This document shows, piece by piece, positions 2,831 to 42,848 of a DNA stretch of 64,000 nt. Every line of letters begins with the position of its first letter. Position 1 is the stretch's first letter. The stretch is from an uncultured Alphaproteobacteria bacterium. Lineage in GTDB: Bacteria > Pseudomonadota > Alphaproteobacteria > Rhodobacterales > Rhodobacteraceae. A model generated the notes under the pieces. It worked only from the letters and a program-made list of their open reading frames with translations, was not told where the DNA came from and searched no databases. The stretch is taken from NCBI GenBank assembly GCA_902524655.1, contig CABZEG010000001.1, positions 1 to 64,000 on the forward strand, given 5' to 3'. The translations under genes were made by a program, and so were the position numbers.

Positions 2831-5272
2831 ATGAGTATACCGTCAGAGGCAAGTATTGTAATTATTGGCGGTGGTATATCAGGATGCTCGCTAGCATATC
2901 ATCTTGCTAAGATAGGTTGGAAAGACATTGTTCTTTTGGAAAGGAAGAAATTGACTTCTGGAACCACATGGCATGCAGCGGGTCTTATTGGTCAATTAAG
3001 ACCAAACTTAAATATGACAAGATTAGCAAAATACTCTGCAGACCTCTATGTGAACTTAGAAAAAGAAACAGGGGTTTCTACAGGGGTAAAACAAAATGGA
3101 TCGTTAACGGTAGCACTTACAGAGCACCGTCATGAAGAAATTCTGAGACAATCATCGATAGCAAAGTCATTTGATGTTGACGTCAATGAGATTTCCATTT
3201 CTGAATTGAAGTCCTATCATCCATTTTTAAATGTCGATGGAGTGAAGGGTGCCGTCCATCTCCCACTAGATGGTCAAGGCGATCCCGCGAATATTGCAAT
3301 GGCACTAGCAAAAGGAGCTCGAGATTTAGGAGTAAAAATTTTTGAAGATACAAAAGTGACTGGGTTAAACACTCATAATAATTCAGTTAGTGGCATTTAC
3401 TGGCTGAATAATGATGGAAAAGGGCTTATCAAAACTGAAAATGCTGCAAATTGTGCTGGAATGTGGGCAAGAGAATTTGCTGAAAGCCAGGGGGTTACCG
3501 TTCCGCTCCATGCCTGTGAGCATTTCTATATCGTAACTGAACCAGTCAAAAACCTAAGTACTTTGCCCGTATTAAGAATGCCAGATGAACAAGCGTATTA
3601 CAAAGAGGATGCGGGTAAATTTTTAGTTGGAGCCTTCGAACTTGAAGCAAAACCATGGGGTATGGATGGAATAGATGAGGATTTCTGCTTTGACCAATTA
3701 CCGGAAGATCTAGATCACTTTGAACCTATATTGGAGAAAGCTATAAAGCGAATTCCCATATTAGCAAAATACGGTATTAAAACATTTTTCAATGGTCCAG
3801 AGAGCTTTACTCCGGATGATAAATACTATTTGGGGGAAGCTCCCGAGCTGAAGGGTTTTTGGGTCGCGGCTGGATACAATTCAATTGGAATCGTCTCTTC
3901 GGGGGGTGCTGGGATGGCTTTGGCACAGTGGATCGACCAAGGATCACCTCCCTTTGACCTATGGGACGTTGATATTAGGAGAGCCCAACCATTCCAAAGA
4001 AACCGTCTCTATTTGAAAAACCGGGTAAAGGAAACATTAGGATTATTGTTTGCAGATCATTTTCCTTATCGACAGGTCGAAACATCTCGAGGGGTCAGAA
4101 GATCACCATTACACGAGCATTTAAAAAAGGAAAATGCCGTTTTCGGTGAACTCGCGGGATGGGAAAGAGCCAATTGGTTTTCTATTGGTAGCCAGGAAAA
4201 AAGATACATCTACGATTGGAAAAAACAAAATTGGTTTGAAAACCATAGACTAGAGCATTTAGCAATTCGAAATAATGTTGGACTAGTAGATATGAGCAGT
4301 TTTGGAAAAATAAGAGTTGAGGGAAGTGATGCCCTTTTGTTTTGCCAAAGAATTTGTGGAAATAATGTCGATGTAGAAATTGGGAAAATAGTTTACACCC
4401 AAATGCTCAATTCAAAAGGTGGTATTGAAAGCGACCTGACAGTCACTCGTTTAAAGCAGAATTGTTTTTTATTTGTAGTACCCGCTACAACTCTAGTGCG
4501 AGATCTGAGTTGGCTGAGTCGCCACACAGAAGACTTTAATATCGTATTAACTGATGTTACTTCATCTGAAGCCGTTTTAGCATTAATGGGGCCTAATTCA
4601 AGAAAGCTATTATCAGACATATCACCAAATAAATTTGATAACAAAAATCATCCCTTTGGCTTAGCAAAGGAAATCGAAATAGGATATGGTTTAGCTAGAG
4701 CACATCGAATAAGTTATGTTGGTGAATTAGGTTGGGAACTTTATGTTAGTTCAGAGCAGGCATGTCATGTTTTCGAAACAATCCGAGAGGCAGGAAAAAA
4801 ATATGAGCTAAAGCTCTGTGGGCAACATAGCTTAGATAGTTGTAGAATAGAGAAGGCTTATCGCCATTTTGGCCATGACATTACCGATGAAGATCATGTT
4901 TTGGAAGCAGGGCTCGGTTTTGCTGTAAAAACAGATAAAGATGATTTTATAGGTAAAGAGGCAGTTATAAGGAAAAACAATAAGGGGTTAGAAAAATATC
5001 TCTATCAATTTCAATTAGAAGATCCAGAACTATTTCTTTTTCATAATGAACCGATTTATCGGGATGGCGAACTCGTTTCTCATTTAACTTCTGGTAATTA
5101 CGGTCACTTTTTGGGATCAGCTGTTGGCATGGGTTATATTCCATTAAAAGAAGAAACTAAAGAGTCAGTTGAAACCTCTGATTTTCATATTGAAATTTCA
5201 GGTACTATGGCGAAGGCAAAAATTTCATTAAGACCACTTTATGACCCTAGTTCAGAAAAAATTAAGGTCTAA
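2831..5272 (+). CDS. FAD-dependent oxidoreductase / dimethylglycine-sarcosine dehydrogenase-like with GcvT C-terminal domains
   Basis: N-terminal IVIIGGGISGCSLAYHLAKIGWKDIVLLERKKLTSGTTWHAAGL plus GcvT-like C-terminus (GELGWELYV..., FIGKEA); the ORF opens at 2819 but ATG 2831 has a better upstream GGGG. Confidence 0.88.
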   Translation: MSIPSEASIVIIGGGISGCSLAYHLAKIGWKDIVLLERKKLTSGTTWHAAGLIGQLRPNLNMTRLAKYSADLYVNLEKETGVSTGVKQNGSLTVALTEHRHEEILRQSSIAKSFDVDVNEISISELKSYHPFLNVDGVKGAVHLPLDGQGDPANIAMALAKGARDLGVKIFEDTKVTGLNTHNNSVSGIYWLNNDGKGLIKTENAANCAGMWAREFAESQGVTVPLHACEHFYIVTEPVKNLSTLPVLRMPDEQAYYKEDAGKFLVGAFELEAKPWGMDGIDEDFCFDQLPEDLDHFEPILEKAIKRIPILAKYGIKTFFNGPESFTPDDKYYLGEAPELKGFWVAAGYNSIGIVSSGGAGMALAQWIDQGSPPFDLWDVDIRRAQPFQRNRLYLKNRVKETLGLLFADHFPYRQVETSRGVRRSPLHEHLKKENAVFGELAGWERANWFSIGSQEKRYIYDWKKQNWFENHRLEHLAIRNNVGLVDMSSFGKIRVEGSDALLFCQRICGNNVDVEIGKIVYTQMLNSKGGIESDLTVTRLKQNCFLFVVPATTLVRDLSWLSRHTEDFNIVLTDVTSSEAVLALMGPNSRKLLSDISPNKFDNKNHPFGLAKEIEIGYGLARAHRISYVGELGWELYVSSEQACHVFETIREAGKKYELKLCGQHSLDSCRIEKAYRHFGHDITDEDHVLEAGLGFAVKTDKDDFIGKEAVIRKNNKGLEKYLYQFQLEDPELFLFHNEPIYRDGELVSHLTSGNYGHFLGSAVGMGYIPLKEETKESVETSDFHIEISGTMAKAKISLRPLYDPSSEKIKV

Positions 5273-27452: not shown

Positions 27453-28688
27453 TTAGAAGCACTTAGCCAAGTTGGTTGCCAAGTTTCGAATGAGGTTTTC
27501 ATATAGACTTGGGCCAGTTTCTAATTTAACGCCTAGTGGATCAATCACAGCTGTATTTGCGTTGGTCCCCTCAACAACCGCTTTAACTAGGCCCTGTTTG
27601 TATTGGGGCTCCGCAAGCACACACTCGACAGCTTCATCTACCACTCTTTTGCGTATCTCGGCAAGACGAGCGGGGCTTGGATCAGAAGCATCCCCTAATG
27701 ATATAGCTCCGGAAGCACTAATACCAAAATCTTTCTCAAAATACTGATAAGCATCATGAAAAACGACAAATTTCTTCTCTCTTATTGGATATAATATGGA
27801 ATTCACTTCAGATACCAATGCGTCAATGTTATCTCTAGCCGATTTTGCATTTGAAAAATAAGTTGCAGCATTATCAGGGTCAAGCTCCGACAATTTTGCT
27901 GCAATAGAATTCAACCATACTTTCGCAATTTTTGGTGACAACCAGGCATGAGGATCGTGCTCTCCGTGAGCATGGCCCTCGTGGTCATCATGATCATCAT
28001 GCTTTTTCTTGCCATGGTCATGATCGTCATGGTCATCATGCTTCTTCTTGCCATGATCGTGATCATCGTGGTCGTCATGCTTCTTCTTACCATGGTCATG
28101 ATCATCGTGATCATCATGCTTCTTCTTATCATGGTCGTGATCATCGTGGTCGTCATGCTTCTTCTTACCATGGTCATGATCATCGTGATCATCATGCTTC
28201 TTCTTATCATGGTCGTGATCATCGTGGTCGTCATGCTTCTTCTTACCATGGTCATGATCATCGTGATCATCATGCTTCTTCTTACCATGGTCATCATGAT
28301 CGTCGTGATCGCCATGGTCATGTGCTTCGAATAGCGCTCCCTCGCGGAAACTGAGAAGTTCTATGCCATCAACACCTAGAAGAGAAGTTATAGAAGCGTC
28401 TTTCGCTAAACTTTCCAGACCATTTTCCAGCCACGGTGTAAGATCCTCTCCTATCCAAAAAACAACATCAGCATCTTCCAATGACTTTGCATTAGAGGGT
28501 TTAAGTTGATATTCGTGCGGGGATGCTCCTGCTGGCATAATCAAGTCTGGTTTACCCACACCTTTCATTACACTTGAGACTAGTGAATGGACGGGGGCGA
28601 TGTCTACAGTAACCTTCGGCACATCTGCAACTAGCATACTGGTGCTCAATAGAAACGCTGACGTTGTTGAAAGGAATTTATTAGACAT
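27453..28688 (-). CDS. znuA: zinc ABC transporter substrate-binding protein with long His/Asp-rich loop
   Basis: VTVDIAPVHSLVSSVMKGVGKPDLIMPAGASPHEYQLKPSNAKSLEDADVVFWIGEDLTPWLE; EHDPHAWLSP; start taken at MSNKFLSTTS with GGAGAG upstream. Confidence 0.93.
   Translation of the reverse strand: MSNKFLSTTSAFLLSTSMLVADVPKVTVDIAPVHSLVSSVMKGVGKPDLIMPAGASPHEYQLKPSNAKSLEDADVVFWIGEDLTPWLENGLESLAKDASITSLLGVDGIELLSFREGALFEAHDHGDHDDHDDHGKKKHDDHDDHDHGKKKHDDHDDHDHDKKKHDDHDDHDHGKKKHDDHDDHDHDKKKHDDHDDHDHGKKKHDDHDDHDHGKKKHDDHDDHDHGKKKHDDHDDHEGHAHGEHDPHAWLSPKIAKVWLNSIAAKLSELDPDNAATYFSNAKSARDNIDALVSEVNSILYPIREKKFVVFHDAYQYFEKDFGISASGAISLGDASDPSPARLAEIRKRVVDEAVECVLAEPQYKQGLVKAVVEGTNANTAVIDPLGVKLETGPSLYENLIRNLATNLAKCF
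27975..28312. repeat. tandem repeat (39-bp unit; 78-bp higher-order unit) encoding (HDDHDDHDH[G/D]KKK)n
   Basis: Seven full 13-aa units read in the ZnuA translation; 78-bp units at 28076-28153 and 28154-28231 read as identical, with a third partial copy from 28232. Confidence 0.92.
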
Positions 28689-28722
28689 TTGGCTCTCCAT
28701 GAGGTATTTGTATTGGTGTGTT

Positions 28723-28752
28723 ATGTTATAACATGTAATGATATAACGTAAC
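28723..28752. promoter_or_regulatory. putative Zur-binding region (two adjacent dyads)
   Basis: Perfect palindrome ATGTTATAACAT (28723-28734) followed by GTAATGATATAACGTAAC (28735-28752) between divergent znuA and zur. Confidence 0.65.
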
Positions 28753-28795
28753 ATCTTAACAAAGTAAAGATCAATTCTACAGAGCGCGCATTCGG

Positions 28796-29299
28796 ATGAA
28801 AAAAAAGAAAAAAAACGAAAATTCTTCAAAGATATTTGAAGGTCATGACCATGGAGCTTGCTTTGGTGACGCGATAACACTAATCGAGGATTATTTCATC
28901 GAGAAAAAATTACAACTAACTCCTTTACGACGAAAAGTTTTTGAAATTTTAATCGAGGATCACAAGCCTCTTGGCGCTTATGAGATCCTTGATAGTTTAG
29001 GGAAGGCAGGTTTTTCATCATCTCCACCTATAGCGTATCGAGTTCTTGACTTTTTAATGGAACATGGATTTGTTCATAAAGTGCAGGGTTTAAATGCCTT
29101 TATTGCCTGTTCAAACCCAGAGCACTCGCATTTTCCGACATTTGTTATCTGTCGAAAATGTGAGAAAGTTGCAGAAGTCAGTGACGAGAAAACCAGGCTT
29201 AATCTATCGAGTCCCGAAATAACAGATTTCAAAATTGAAAAAACCACTATTGAATTGACTGGAATTTGTAGCACTTGCGAAAATGCAGAGATCAGATAA
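28796..29299 (+). CDS. zur: Fur-family regulator, Zur-like
   Basis: LTPLRRKVFEILIEDHKPLGAYEILDSL...PPIAYRVLDFLMEHGFVHKVQGLNAFIAC...HFPTFVICRKCEKVAEV; in the znu cluster. Confidence 0.88.
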   Translation: MKKKKKNENSSKIFEGHDHGACFGDAITLIEDYFIEKKLQLTPLRRKVFEILIEDHKPLGAYEILDSLGKAGFSSSPPIAYRVLDFLMEHGFVHKVQGLNAFIACSNPEHSHFPTFVICRKCEKVAEVSDEKTRLNLSSPEITDFKIEKTTIELTGICSTCENAEIR

Positions 29300-33916: not shown

Positions 33917-33970
33917 ATGGTGAGCCCGACAGGGTTCGAACCTGTGACCCACTGATTAAAAGTCAGTTGC
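33917..33970. repeat. attL: 54-bp direct repeat equal to the 3' part of tRNA-Lys
   Basis: atggtgagcccgacagggttcgaacctgtgacccactgattaaaagtcagttgc, identical to 42772-42825. Confidence 0.93.
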
Positions 33971-34034
33971 CTTAAGTATTATTAGACATTTTTTAATCAA
34001 ATATTCTCATAATATATCAATTTTTATTGCCTTT

Positions 34035-34080
34035 TGTCTACTATTTGTCTACTAGTATTGCTGTCTACTAACTGTCTACT
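34035..34080. repeat. four TGTCTACT direct repeats (candidate integrase arm-type sites, left)
   Basis: Copies at 34035-34042, 34046-34053, 34062-34069, 34073-34080; matching pair at the right end. Confidence 0.7.
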
Positions 34081-34089
34081 GGATTAAAA

Positions 34090-35334
34090 TTGGTAAAAAT
34101 CACAGAAAAATACTTAGAAAAAATAAAGCCAGGCACCAAAGACCAATATCACCGAGATGACACATTAAAAGGCTTTGCCGTCAAAGTAACGCCAACCGGC
34201 CGAATATCTTTTATAGCCGAAGGAAGAGTAAGAAAAGGTAGGTCTCGACGCATCACTTTAGGGCGACATCCTTTTCTTGCAATGAAGGAAGCAAGAGAGC
34301 TAGCTATGAATAATCTCAATGAAATGCAAAAAGGAATCGACCCAGTATTGAAAGAAAGGGAGGAGAGAGGAAAACAGAAAGCTTTATCAAAAACATTAAA
34401 TGATATTTTTCATGAGTATCTATCCCTAAAAGCTCTCAAGCCTAATACCAAGTATGATTATGTGAACACTTTCTTATTAACTTTTTCAGAGTTAGGGAAA
34501 AGACCTATTAGAAGTATTTCTAGGCAGGAAATCTTAGAACTCTATTTTAAGATTCAAAGCGAGAGAGGGGATTCTACCGCAGCAAAATTCAAAAGGATTG
34601 GTTCAGCTATTTTCAAATTTGCAATGGCTGATGAAGTTGATGGTGAGAGGCTGATTAAAGAAAACCCTTTTAACATAATAACTGAGAAAGGAATAAAAAT
34701 TCCTTTGAAGAAGAGAGCTACCTTTCTAACTAATACAGACATCTCAAAGCTTATTACTTTCTATATGAATTTTGAAAACTGGCCCTCTCCTTCGAAACAT
34801 GGAGTGACAAAGCAGGGAATAAATTACGTAATCCTTTTAATGACAACAGGGCTAAGAAAAAGTGAAGCCTTGAGACTTAAGTGGAATCATGTTGATTGGA
34901 CTAATAAGACCTTCACAGCATTTGAGACTAAAAACAGTTCAAATCATATCGTACCAATGTCGACTACTACTGAATGGATTTTAAATGAGCAGCAAAAAAT
35001 TTCACTAGATAGTCCCTACGTATTTCCTTCTCAGAAAACTGGGATGCATATGACGGAACCAAAGTCGCAATTATTTAAAATAAGACGCGCAACAAAATTA
35101 AACTTTACCTTCCATGATTTAAGAAGAACCTTTGCTACTCATGCCGAAGCATTGGGGCAATCACATGAGCTAATAAGAAAAGCTCTCAATCATAAATCTG
35201 GTGGAGGGATAACATCTCAGTATATAATAACTCAAGTTGAAACTTTAAGACCTGTTTTTCAATCGGTTGCTGAAGGCTACAGAACTTACTATGACCCAGA
35301 CTGGAGATATGACTTAATAGATGAGGGGGACTAA
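34090..35334 (+). CDS. tyrosine-type site-specific integrase
   Basis: N-terminal YHRDDTLKGFAVKVTPTGRISFIAEGRV...ITLGRHPFLAMKEAR (DUF4102-like), catalytic TTGLRKSEALRLKW, HDLRRTFATHAEALG, LNHK. Confidence 0.95.
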   Translation: MVKITEKYLEKIKPGTKDQYHRDDTLKGFAVKVTPTGRISFIAEGRVRKGRSRRITLGRHPFLAMKEARELAMNNLNEMQKGIDPVLKEREERGKQKALSKTLNDIFHEYLSLKALKPNTKYDYVNTFLLTFSELGKRPIRSISRQEILELYFKIQSERGDSTAAKFKRIGSAIFKFAMADEVDGERLIKENPFNIITEKGIKIPLKKRATFLTNTDISKLITFYMNFENWPSPSKHGVTKQGINYVILLMTTGLRKSEALRLKWNHVDWTNKTFTAFETKNSSNHIVPMSTTTEWILNEQQKISLDSPYVFPSQKTGMHMTEPKSQLFKIRRATKLNFTFHDLRRTFATHAEALGQSHELIRKALNHKSGGGITSQYIITQVETLRPVFQSVAEGYRTYYDPDWRYDLIDEGD

Positions 35335-35585: not shown

Positions 35586-35643
35586 AACCTAATACGATTA
35601 ACTTAGAAATTAATTAACTCTAAATGCAACTGATTTGACATAA

Positions 35644-35663
35644 TGTGTACTATGTAGTACACA
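35644..35663. promoter_or_regulatory. palindrome TGTGTACT-ATGT-AGTACACA, putative operator of the XRE regulator
   Basis: Perfect 8-bp arms with 4-bp spacer ending 6 bp before ATG 35670. Confidence 0.65.
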
Positions 35664-35669
35664 GTACTT

Positions 35670-36023
35670 ATGAAAAGATTCGGTTCATATATACGAGACT
35701 GTCGAGAGGCACTCAATAAAGAAAGTAAAGGTTACAGTGTACGGAAAGTTGCTGAGAAGATTGGGGTGGAGCCCGCATTCCTTAGCAAGGTTGAGAGAGA
35801 CATAGTCCCTCCCCCTTCAGAGAAGAAGATTGTAGCTCTGGCAAAGGTGCTTGATGAGGACCCAGATATCCTACTTGCGATGGCCGGCAAAGTGTCCACA
35901 GACCTATTAAAGATAATACAAAAGCGCCCTGTTATCTTTGCTGATTTAATTCGCAGACTAAAGAAAGAGCCGGACCATGCTGTTTTAAAAATAGTAAGAG
36001 AAGTAACAGACGGAGAATGGTAA
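35670..36023 (+). CDS. XRE-family helix-turn-helix regulator
   Basis: YSVRKVAEKIGVEPAFLSKVERDIVPPPSEKKIVALAKVLDEDPDILLAMAGK. Confidence 0.88.
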   Translation: MKRFGSYIRDCREALNKESKGYSVRKVAEKIGVEPAFLSKVERDIVPPPSEKKIVALAKVLDEDPDILLAMAGKVSTDLLKIIQKRPVIFADLIRRLKKEPDHAVLKIVREVTDGEW

Positions 36024-36035
36024 AGGAGACCTAAC

Positions 36036-37109
36036 ATGATAAACTTAAGACACAATCAACTTGAAATTCGCTTTCCTGAAATTCACAAAAGGGCTGGAGT
36101 TAAAATTGATTTTAAAAGAACCTTGAGGGTACCTGATGACTCAGAAACTCACTACTTGCCGCCAAACTTAGGAAGATTTCCTCTTCGCCATATTGAAGAC
36201 TTTGACTTAAAAAATAAGAGTCATTTGAAAAAGCGTGGAGGAGTGATAATGCCAATGTTTCAGGCTGACGCACTTTGGTTAAACTTCACTCCTCTTTATG
36301 AAGGTTATGACGAAGAGTACCCAATAGCTATTAAGATAGGCACAGGTAAAATCTGTGCAATATCTGGCGATAAATGGAATTCGAGTCTAAATAGGGACCC
36401 TCAGGATTACATTGTCGTGCCAAGCCAACCATGGTTAGATGGCTATAATGCTGACAAAAACGGAACTGTAAGGCAATTCGTTGCTGCTCCCCTTGGGAAG
36501 GGCTACACAGTAGAAGAACAGTTGACAGGGTCTGCTACCGTTGGAGGTATACAGATTCAAGCTTTTCCAATGAAATTAAAAAAATATAAAGAATTAATGA
36601 AAGCACGTTCCTACCAAGTTGAGGTGCAGGCATGCTACTCAGCAGAACCATTACTAGAAAGCAGAGAGTCATTTGATATGGGTTTAGCCCCCGGAGGCTC
36701 GATTAAACAGGATATCTACGAAGATGAGCATGACCTAGAAGACTGGGACTTACGAAATACTCACAGGTGTTTTGTAACCTTAGCAAATGCTACACAGTGG
36801 ATGGACTTAACGTGCGAGGCTCCTCCCCTTTCGCCGAATACCGAGTATCAATATAAACAGGAAGGACTTACCTGGTTTGATTATTATGATAAAGATAGAG
36901 AAGCAATTGATACAGCTGTAAAGCTAGGAAAAGTTAAATCTCCGAAAAAGTTAGGAGCCGCAGAGGAAGACCCGATTTGGGATGAGGAGCTAGAATTTTC
37001 AACTAATGACCCTATGAAAAAGTATCTCAAACTTCAAAAAATAATCAAGAAAAGGAACGAAAATAAATTGATGGAAGAGTTCGGCAGGGACAAGAAAAAA
37101 TGGTGGTAA
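36036..37109 (+). CDS. protein of unknown function (conserved-looking soluble protein)
   Basis: 357 aa, no recognised enzyme motif; MPMFQADALWLNF, DPQDYIVVPSQPWLDGY, RQFVAAPLGKGYTVEEQLTG. Confidence 0.75.
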   Translation: MINLRHNQLEIRFPEIHKRAGVKIDFKRTLRVPDDSETHYLPPNLGRFPLRHIEDFDLKNKSHLKKRGGVIMPMFQADALWLNFTPLYEGYDEEYPIAIKIGTGKICAISGDKWNSSLNRDPQDYIVVPSQPWLDGYNADKNGTVRQFVAAPLGKGYTVEEQLTGSATVGGIQIQAFPMKLKKYKELMKARSYQVEVQACYSAEPLLESRESFDMGLAPGGSIKQDIYEDEHDLEDWDLRNTHRCFVTLANATQWMDLTCEAPPLSPNTEYQYKQEGLTWFDYYDKDREAIDTAVKLGKVKSPKKLGAAEEDPIWDEELEFSTNDPMKKYLKLQKIIKKRNENKLMEEFGRDKKKWW

Positions 37110-37123
37110 TAAGGAGCAAAGAC

Positions 37124-37408
37124 ATGATTACACTGAAAACGACACTAGGTGTTGAAACTCTCAGAAATGCCCCAACCGTTTCTGAACTGAAGTTAAGCCG
37201 AATAGAACAATTTAAGTTAGCTAATGAAGGTAAACTTGAGAATTACAGAGAGAGATGCTGCTTCTGTAAAGTAGAGATGACAAACATTTATAAAACTCAT
37301 AATCCCTACCCTCTTAACAAAAATGAAGACGCGACCTGTTGCAAGGACTGCTGTGATACTTTGGTGGGGCCTGCTCGGATGATGATGATTTTAAAAAAGG
37401 AGATTTAA
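37124..37408 (+). CDS. small Cys-rich (zinc-ribbon-like) protein
   Basis: CCFCKVEM...NPYPLNKNEDATCCKDCCDTLVGPARM; AAGGAG before ATG 37124. Confidence 0.7.
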   Translation: MITLKTTLGVETLRNAPTVSELKLSRIEQFKLANEGKLENYRERCCFCKVEMTNIYKTHNPYPLNKNEDATCCKDCCDTLVGPARMMMILKKEI

Positions 37409-37411
37409 AAA

Positions 37412-37807
37412 ATGGAATTAGACTTACAGAATGAGACTCCGGAAAAGGAGAAAAAACCTAATTACATACACGCTGCTCTAGGAGCCATTGGGTTTATTTT
37501 TTTCCTGTGGGGCTTCTTCGAAGGAGATGGAAATTTAATAATGCGACTAATTACTGGAATTATAACCTTTGGTGGAGGCCTGATAATCACATATACAGTT
37601 CTTTACGTCGGACTGGGATGTTTATCTATTTTTTTTAACTCTGTTTATCGAGCTCAAAACTCGTTCTTAGGAGGATTAAAAGGTGCTATAGGAATATTTC
37701 TTCTTCTTGGTTTTTTCGATATGGCACTTCTTGGAGGAACGTTTATTTATCAACCAGTCATGATTTTTCTTTTTACAGGTAGTTTTGAAAACACTTTTTG
37801 GAATTGA
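37412..37807 (+). CDS. small multi-TM membrane protein
   Basis: Three to four hydrophobic segments (AALGAIGFIFFLWGFF; ITFGGGLIITYTVLYVGLG; GAIGIFLLLGFFDMALLGGTF). Confidence 0.65.
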   Translation: MELDLQNETPEKEKKPNYIHAALGAIGFIFFLWGFFEGDGNLIMRLITGIITFGGGLIITYTVLYVGLGCLSIFFNSVYRAQNSFLGGLKGAIGIFLLLGFFDMALLGGTFIYQPVMIFLFTGSFENTFWN

Positions 37808-38793: not shown

Positions 38794-39078
38794 TTAAGTT
38801 TTAGAACCCTGACTAGGTGGTTTTAAGACCTCGTCGATAACTAAGTGTCTAAGCTCCTGCATATCAGGATTGTCACTTAGTTTTTTCAAGGCTCGTGCCT
38901 CAATCTGACGGACACGCTCATAAGAGATGCCAAAAATCTTTGCGATTTGATGAAGTGTCCAAGTCTCTTGATTTGGCATATCAATTCCAAAACGCATCTT
39001 TAAAATCAACAGTTCACGTTCTGTCATTTTGTCTAACTGACTCAAATTATTAACAGCCTTTGTAATTCTTATTAACAC
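38794..39078 (-). CDS. stand-alone sigma-70 region 4-like protein
   Basis: MTERELLILKMRFGIDMPNQETWTLHQIAKIFGISYERVRQIEARALKKL; no region 2 upstream; start may be 39027. Confidence 0.8.
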   Translation of the reverse strand: MLIRITKAVNNLSQLDKMTERELLILKMRFGIDMPNQETWTLHQIAKIFGISYERVRQIEARALKKLSDNPDMQELRHLVIDEVLKPPSQGSKT

Positions 39079-39649
39079 ATTCTCTTGCTAAATCTTGTGC
39101 CTTCTCTATTTGGGATGGGGTCATTTTTTTTGCCACTAAATCTCTGTTATTTGATGCGTCTTCAAAACCATTTGCAGCAGCTATATTTAACCACATGTGA
39201 GCATAGACCAAGTCCTGTAATACACCTAGCCCTTCTTTATACAAAAGTCCTAGATTGTTCTGCGCTTTTGAATATCCCCCTTCAGCAGCAATTTTAAACC
39301 ATTGAACTGCTTCTTTATAGTCTTGGATAGTACCTTGCCCTTCTTTGAGCATAACTGCTAGATTAAACTGTGCATGTATATATCCCTGTTTAGCAGCAAG
39401 CGTGTGCCACTTAACTGCTTCTTTATAGTCTTGAATAGTTCCTTGCCCATTATAAAACATTTGCGCCAAATTATACTGTGCTACTGCGCCTCCTTTCTCG
39501 GCTAATCTTTTAAACCCCTCGAAAGCAATGGCGTAGTCACCTTTTTTATATGCATTAAAAGATTTTTGGAAGTCATCACCCCAACTCAAACTAACACTCA
39601 ATGATAAAAATAAAATGGTACCTGGTATATGTTTCACAAGAAGATTCAT
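39050..39649 (-). CDS. Sel1-repeat (TPR-like) protein with signal peptide
   Basis: Repeats AQYNLAQMFYNGQGTIQDYKEAVKWHTLAAKQGYIHAQFNLAVMLKEGQGTIQDYKEAVQWFKIAAEGG. Confidence 0.9.
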   Translation of the reverse strand: MNLLVKHIPGTILFLSLSVSLSWGDDFQKSFNAYKKGDYAIAFEGFKRLAEKGGAVAQYNLAQMFYNGQGTIQDYKEAVKWHTLAAKQGYIHAQFNLAVMLKEGQGTIQDYKEAVQWFKIAAEGGYSKAQNNLGLLYKEGLGVLQDLVYAHMWLNIAAANGFEDASNNRDLVAKKMTPSQIEKAQDLARECVNKNYKGC

Positions 39650-42412: not shown

Positions 42413-42705
42413 ACGGCTCTGAGAGGATTTTTGCTCCCTGCCCTAACCTCTATCATAGCCAACTATAGTTAGCGTTTGAGAGTGTTAAGCACAGAAAGTG
42501 GTTAACAACTTGATAACTAAAAATCTGGCAAAGACCAATAATATATATCCCCTAGGAGGGGGGTGGCACATGCATGGGTTTATTAACATGATTTCGTAAT
42601 GGTGAATCTAAGTATCAGATGTGGTTAACACGGCAAAATAATGATGTATTATTTCCAGGTTTCTACCAAAGAAACTGACATGATTTCAGAAAAAGTTATG
42701 CCGTT

Positions 42706-42724
42706 TGTCTACTATGTGTCTACT
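42706..42724. repeat. two TGTCTACT direct repeats (candidate integrase arm-type sites, right)
   Basis: 42706-42713 and 42717-42724, 11-bp period as at the left end. Confidence 0.7.
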
Positions 42725-42771: not shown

Positions 42772-42825
42772 ATGGTGAGCCCGACAGGGTTCGAACCTGT
42801 GACCCACTGATTAAAAGTCAGTTGC
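42772..42825. repeat. attR: 54-bp repeat inside intact tRNA-Lys
   Basis: Identical to 33917-33970. Confidence 0.93.
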
Positions 42826-42848
42826 TCTACCAACTGAGCTACGGGCCC
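42773..42848 (-). tRNA. tRNA-Lys (anticodon TTT), CCA encoded
   Basis: GGGCCCGTAGCTCAGTTGGTAGAGCAACTGACTTTTAATCAGTGGGTCACAGGTTCGAACCTGTCGGGCTCACCA; cloverleaf pairs check by eye. Confidence 0.96.

Follow-up and report, generated by a model that had tools for sequence, protein, structure and literature searches.

A mobile gene pair of an XRE regulator and an undescribed protein family, whose members commonly share a C-terminal tail

Several described systems pair an XRE repressor with a partner protein. In the CBASS regulator pair CapH/CapP a short XRE repressor adjoins its partner, a CapP-type metallopeptidase, and in DdrO/PprI(IrrE) and ImmR/ImmA the XRE repressor bears a C-terminal extension. 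The locus described here lies in a window of 64,000 nucleotides from an uncultured Rhodobacteraceae bacterium and resembles these systems, since a short XRE regulator with a C-terminal extension adjoins a partner gene. It differs from them in the partner, a 357-aa protein (hereafter P357) that matched no metallopeptidase or other peptidase family, in its surroundings, where no CBASS genes were seen around the pair, and in a C-terminal tail that proteins of the two families commonly share. The XRE protein itself gave a weak PADLOC capH match (E 1.8e-5), and DdrO and SinR were among its PDB matches, which covered the HTH part only.

The initial annotation had described four co-oriented reading frames with an XRE regulator first, a dyad before it and a downstream ATG preceded by AAGGAG for the third gene, and all of these were recovered (Table 1). 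The first protein matched HTH_3 at E 1.3e-8, with 35.2 bits against a curated cut-off of 23. A gap of 12 bp separates the XRE and P357 genes and one of 3 bp the third and fourth. The AAGGAG stands 8 nt before the ATG at 37124 of the third gene, while an in-frame ATG at 37100 overlaps the P357 gene; this third gene is probably co-transcribed, and its product contains C-x2-C and CC-x2-CC motifs and found no family match in profile searches. The dyad is a palindrome, TGTGTACTA-TG-TAGTACACA, with perfect 9-bp arms, just downstream of a TTGACA box at 35635-35640. The nearest relative (L001) has an identical copy before its XRE gene, and L016, L022, L049 and L068 have related palindromes there; a clear palindrome is found in a minority of loci only, and at 14 of 23 loci, counted by eye, a TTGAC box lies no more than 70 bp ahead of the XRE gene. 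Repression through a palindrome is standard for XRE proteins.

Table 1. Features of the integrative element and of the gene pair in the window
Feature	Position	Strand	Description and basis
attL	33917-33970	.	last 54 nt of tRNA-Lys; 100% identical to 42772-42825; left end of the element
integrase arm-type repeats TGTCTACT	34028-34080	.	direct-repeat family D3; putative arm sites
tyrosine integrase	34090-35334	+	Phage_integrase E 3.3e-20; Arm-DNA-bind_3 E 2.5e-11
operator-like palindrome TGTGTACTATGTAGTACACA	35644-35663	.	sequence; predicted repressor binding site
XRE regulator gene	35670-36023	+	117 aa; C-terminal tail VTDGEW; HTH_3; family alignment with tail kept
P357 gene	36036-37109	+	357 aa; end KKKWW, a degenerate tail
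Cys-rich protein gene	37124-37408	+	94 aa, from ATG; sequence
membrane protein gene	37412-37807	+	131 aa; sequence
third D3 arm-type repeat	42699-42724	.	right end; putative arm site
attR inside tRNA-Lys	42772-42825	.	direct repeat; right end of the element
tRNA-Lys gene	42773-42848	minus	

The proposal that these genes are regulated cargo agrees with their position, as the four genes are cargo of a tRNA-integrating element of about 8.86 kb. Besides its integrase it has a repeat of the tRNA 3' end at each border, and a related genome, G008 (locus L080), shows the empty site, where both window flanks are joined at one repeat copy. Like P4-type integrative elements, it combines an Arm-DNA-bind_3 tyrosine integrase with att repeats from a tRNA 3' end, so that the vehicle is ordinary and the difference lies in the cargo. 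The further cargo includes a stand-alone sigma-70 region 4 protein (38794-39078, minus strand; E 1.3e-16), with a PADLOC match to MzaA over that region, and a Sel1-like repeat protein (by eye) with a tandem repeat of 108 bp at 39211-39426; the rest is an RDD membrane protein and unknowns. Elsewhere in the window, a zinc-binding-protein-like ORF (27453-28880, minus strand) holds a long tandem HDHGKKKHDDHDDHD repeat at 27911-28321 and adjoins a Fur-like regulator and ABC transporter genes.

The claim that the 357-aa protein belongs to a conserved, undescribed family was borne out. Homologues of about 30-60% identity, far above chance, occur at 40 or more loci, and Pfam, NCBIfam, PADLOC, PHROGs and PDB sequences offered no usable match. 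The matches to TIGR03000 (E 0.01) and PDB 1q77 (E 0.17), and those to Lsm_C and HemN_C, obtained in one member each, were under the curated cut-offs or at chance level and were rejected. Several scans placed P357 in 3 of the 41 nearest genomes (its own counted), 8 of 385 alphaproteobacteria and 3 of 249 Pseudomonadota, on six plasmids of actinobacteria, a cyanobacterium and rhizobiales, in two INPHARED phages and on about 35 IMG/VR contigs, many of them of 190-619 kb. Ten of the 16 large P357-bearing viral records tested matched a terminase large subunit, so most of these large records are phages.

Recurrence of the family beside this type of XRE regulator, which the initial annotation had made the point to check, was found on phages, a plasmid and genomes: XRE-P357 pairs occur in alphaproteobacteria, on an actinobacterial megaplasmid and in huge phages of up to 619 kb. 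An all-against-all comparison of neighbours gave one cross-lineage neighbour of P357, the 116-117-aa XRE protein, at 24 of 47 loci. The canonical XRE protein was matched once in 72,556 plasmid records (E <= 1e-8), adjoining P357, and all 11 viral matches of the XRE profile adjoin P357 or, in L054, an apparent P357 remnant (by eye). Distances of the two proteins correlate (Mantel r 0.48, p 2e-4, n 23), and in the P357 tree the XRE-linked proteins all fall within one clade of 34 rows (99/97). Several P357 genes stand without an XRE gene. In one locus (L067) a P357 gene lies directly upstream of a gene for a cpYpsA (SLOG family) protein at 885-1508.

The XRE and P357 genes alone are the conserved module, and the Cys-rich and membrane protein genes are outside it. 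Neither was found beside any other P357 gene, including that of the nearest relative (L001/L012), whose P357 is 85% identical. The Cys-rich protein yielded no viral relatives, and its one clear relative is a paralogue in its own genome (contig C44). A four-gene defence or stress system, as first proposed, fits the tight spacing in the window, but the missing recurrence, even in the nearest relative, and the lack of a PADLOC family for genes 2-4, and so of a match to known anti-phage defence, make it very improbable. Directly upstream of the paralogue (L132; C44:6101-6322; 54% identity) stands a protein that resembles a von Willebrand A domain (by eye), and small secreted-looking proteins follow downstream.

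AlphaFold2 modelled P357 of the window at pLDDT 77.7 and a canonical member (L030) at pLDDT 86.8 and pTM 0.85. In the latter the beta-rich core exceeds 90 and two parts are disordered, a hypervariable loop at 197-219 and the C-terminal residues 342-356. Foldseek with two P357 models found no match in the PDB at E <= 0.001. Against predicted viral proteins it found full-length matches to Harvfovirus proteins (E 1e-20, TM 0.64, 23% identity) and a partial match to a Hyperionvirus ubiquitin-like-domain protein (E 1.5e-8); these uncharacterized proteins are like P357 in fold and differ in being larger and in belonging to giant viruses of eukaryotes. Weaker matches to other giant viruses, an ascovirus, nudiviruses, an iridovirus and a herpesvirus have TM of about 0.3 and are leads only. 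It could be argued that P357 has a structural or assembly role in huge phages, with chromosomal and plasmid copies as remnants, given the many phage records of 190-619 kb, most with terminase, the confidently predicted beta-rich fold and the structural relatives in giant viruses. Yet a dedicated repressor adjoins P357, megaplasmids and an integrative element carry intact copies, and the phage neighbourhood is not constant, and we regard this explanation as quite improbable.

We also found that XRE and P357 proteins commonly share the C-terminal end V-x-[DENT]-G-x-W. Among 5,184 ORFs of at least 50 aa from 56 non-redundant loci, 55 end in [VI]xxGx[WF], namely 26 XRE proteins, 24 P357 proteins, 4 other predicted regulators and 1 spurious frame. 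The other regulators are NikA/RHH-like (L032), RHH-like (L038, weak RHH_1 match; L129, by eye, 3.6 kb from P357) and HTH-like (L126, by eye), so that the tail is borne by regulators of apparently unrelated folds. In the P357 tree L038 and L126 lie outside the XRE-linked clade and L032 inside it; regulators have thus been swapped without loss of the tail. The corresponding DNA pattern, tail plus stop, occurs at 23 places in 17 phage records (5.5 Mb), of which 20 are module members of known position, two lack the stop and one is a chance ORF of 57 aa. A general sorting tag is disfavoured by this confinement to the module. In P357 the tail follows a linker that varies in length and sequence, and in the L030 model it has pLDDT below 50 against a core above 90, which fits a docking peptide; docking in cis was not seen in that model. 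Two extra C-terminal stretches of P357 (L016 and L026) are probably frame-loss fusions and were not used.

The shared tail suggests that the members of the pair communicate with one another or with a single partner in common. Because it is confined to the module and present on unrelated regulators, it is most simply read within the module by P357. In the mechanism that we favour, at somewhat less than an even chance, XRE and P357 form a mobile autoregulated pair in which the tail couples the two proteins. An XRE dimer would bind the palindrome after its -35 box and repress the bicistron. The tail would be a docking peptide for a specific partner, most likely P357 itself, with one subunit perhaps holding the tail of the next in a groove; any regulator bearing a copy of the tail could then bind unassembled P357, tuning repression to the level or activity of P357, the presumed effector. 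The best lead for its action is that it inhibits, at the protein level, some factor of the host, perhaps a protease. Against this mechanism stand some tailed P357 proteins with no tailed regulator nearby (L007, L009, L030, L037, L119), some XRE-linked P357 proteins with deviant tails (the window, L001, L006, L015, L068), P357 proteins with no tail (a short phage clade, L008, L010, L020) and the small share of loci with a clear palindrome before the XRE gene; a common third partner would explain the same data. In the window the XRE end is canonical and P357 keeps the terminal Trp only; given this degenerate tail, the coupling may here be changed or lost.

A two-gene toxin-antitoxin or addiction unit, with XRE as antitoxin and P357 as toxin, would agree with the position of the XRE gene ahead of its partner, the short gap between the genes and the sparse and mobile distribution. 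It seems improbable to us, as P357, unlike the expected partner in a type II unit, matched none of the toxin families known to Pfam, NCBIfam or PADLOC, several P357 genes stand without XRE, and the partner is large and bears the tail of its own regulator.

The tail may instead bind a third protein, for example a protease or chaperone of host or phage. In such a circuit the tailed repressor would fall to an active protease, by capture or cleavage, the pair would be derepressed, and P357, carrying the same bait, would bind the protease, a sense-and-inhibit scheme that works like the derepression of DdrO/PprI or CapH/CapP. A free C-terminal aromatic residue, as the tail has, is a typical recognition signal for a protease or chaperone, and a third partner would account both for the shared tails and for P357 tails in the absence of tailed regulators (L007, L009, L037). 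On a Bradyrhizobium plasmid (L008) and a Kovacikia plasmid (L010), tail-less P357 relatives stand beside homologous astacin-like peptidases, with caspase (C14) domains within about 4 kb, the only ones on these records of 184 kb and 1.2 Mb. In L115 a ClpP-like ORF (by eye) lies directly 5' of P357. Also, the P357 model marginally matched a Wsv390-like nimavirus protein (E 5.9e-3, prob 0.89, TM 0.33, 11% identity), the relative of a caspase inhibitor: WSSV449, its WSSV homologue, binds, is cleaved by and inhibits shrimp caspase (PMC3871164). The likeness of P357 to WSSV449/AAP-1 (wsv390) consists of this marginal match; the global superposition is weak, the hosts differ, and caspase inhibition is a feature of WSSV449. 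Also against a third partner, the 5.5 Mb of phage DNA show the tail within the module alone, the caspase-adjacent P357 copies are the tail-less ones, and no caspase gene was found in the phage records tested. We consider a third partner possible, if on the doubtful side. As side observations, the two plasmid clusters also hold Trypsin_2/PLD (L008) or Amidase_2 (L010), and the ClpP-like ORF of L115 occupies 3362-3970 of a 194-kb phage contig, with the tailed P357 gene next downstream.

The caspase and astacin neighbours and the fold match to the relative of WSSV449 together point, at low probability, to a protease-directed role of P357. Since protease links were sought after the first one had been seen, their co-occurrence is no clean test. 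Taken further, P357 might be a protease inhibitor by which mobile elements and huge phages act against caspase-like host-suicide or immune proteases, of common ancestry with giant-virus proteins and the shrimp-virus caspase inhibitor, with tailed repressors of several folds mimicking P357 and so sensing either its target or P357 itself; to this we give a small probability.

Returning to the XRE-P357 pair, a search of mostly non-subscription literature found nothing usable on the P357 family, the tail motif or phage caspase inhibitors. The newness of the pair rests on the family, its fold and the tail, and the pair itself could prove to be a form of a known repressor-partner circuit. Members of the P357 family occur in bacteria, on plasmids and in huge phages, and structural matches extend its range to giant viruses of eukaryotes. 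Should the tail prove to be a shared docking code, it would represent a compact principle of regulation, with DNA-binding regulators of unrelated types having acquired the six-residue peptide of the protein that they control.
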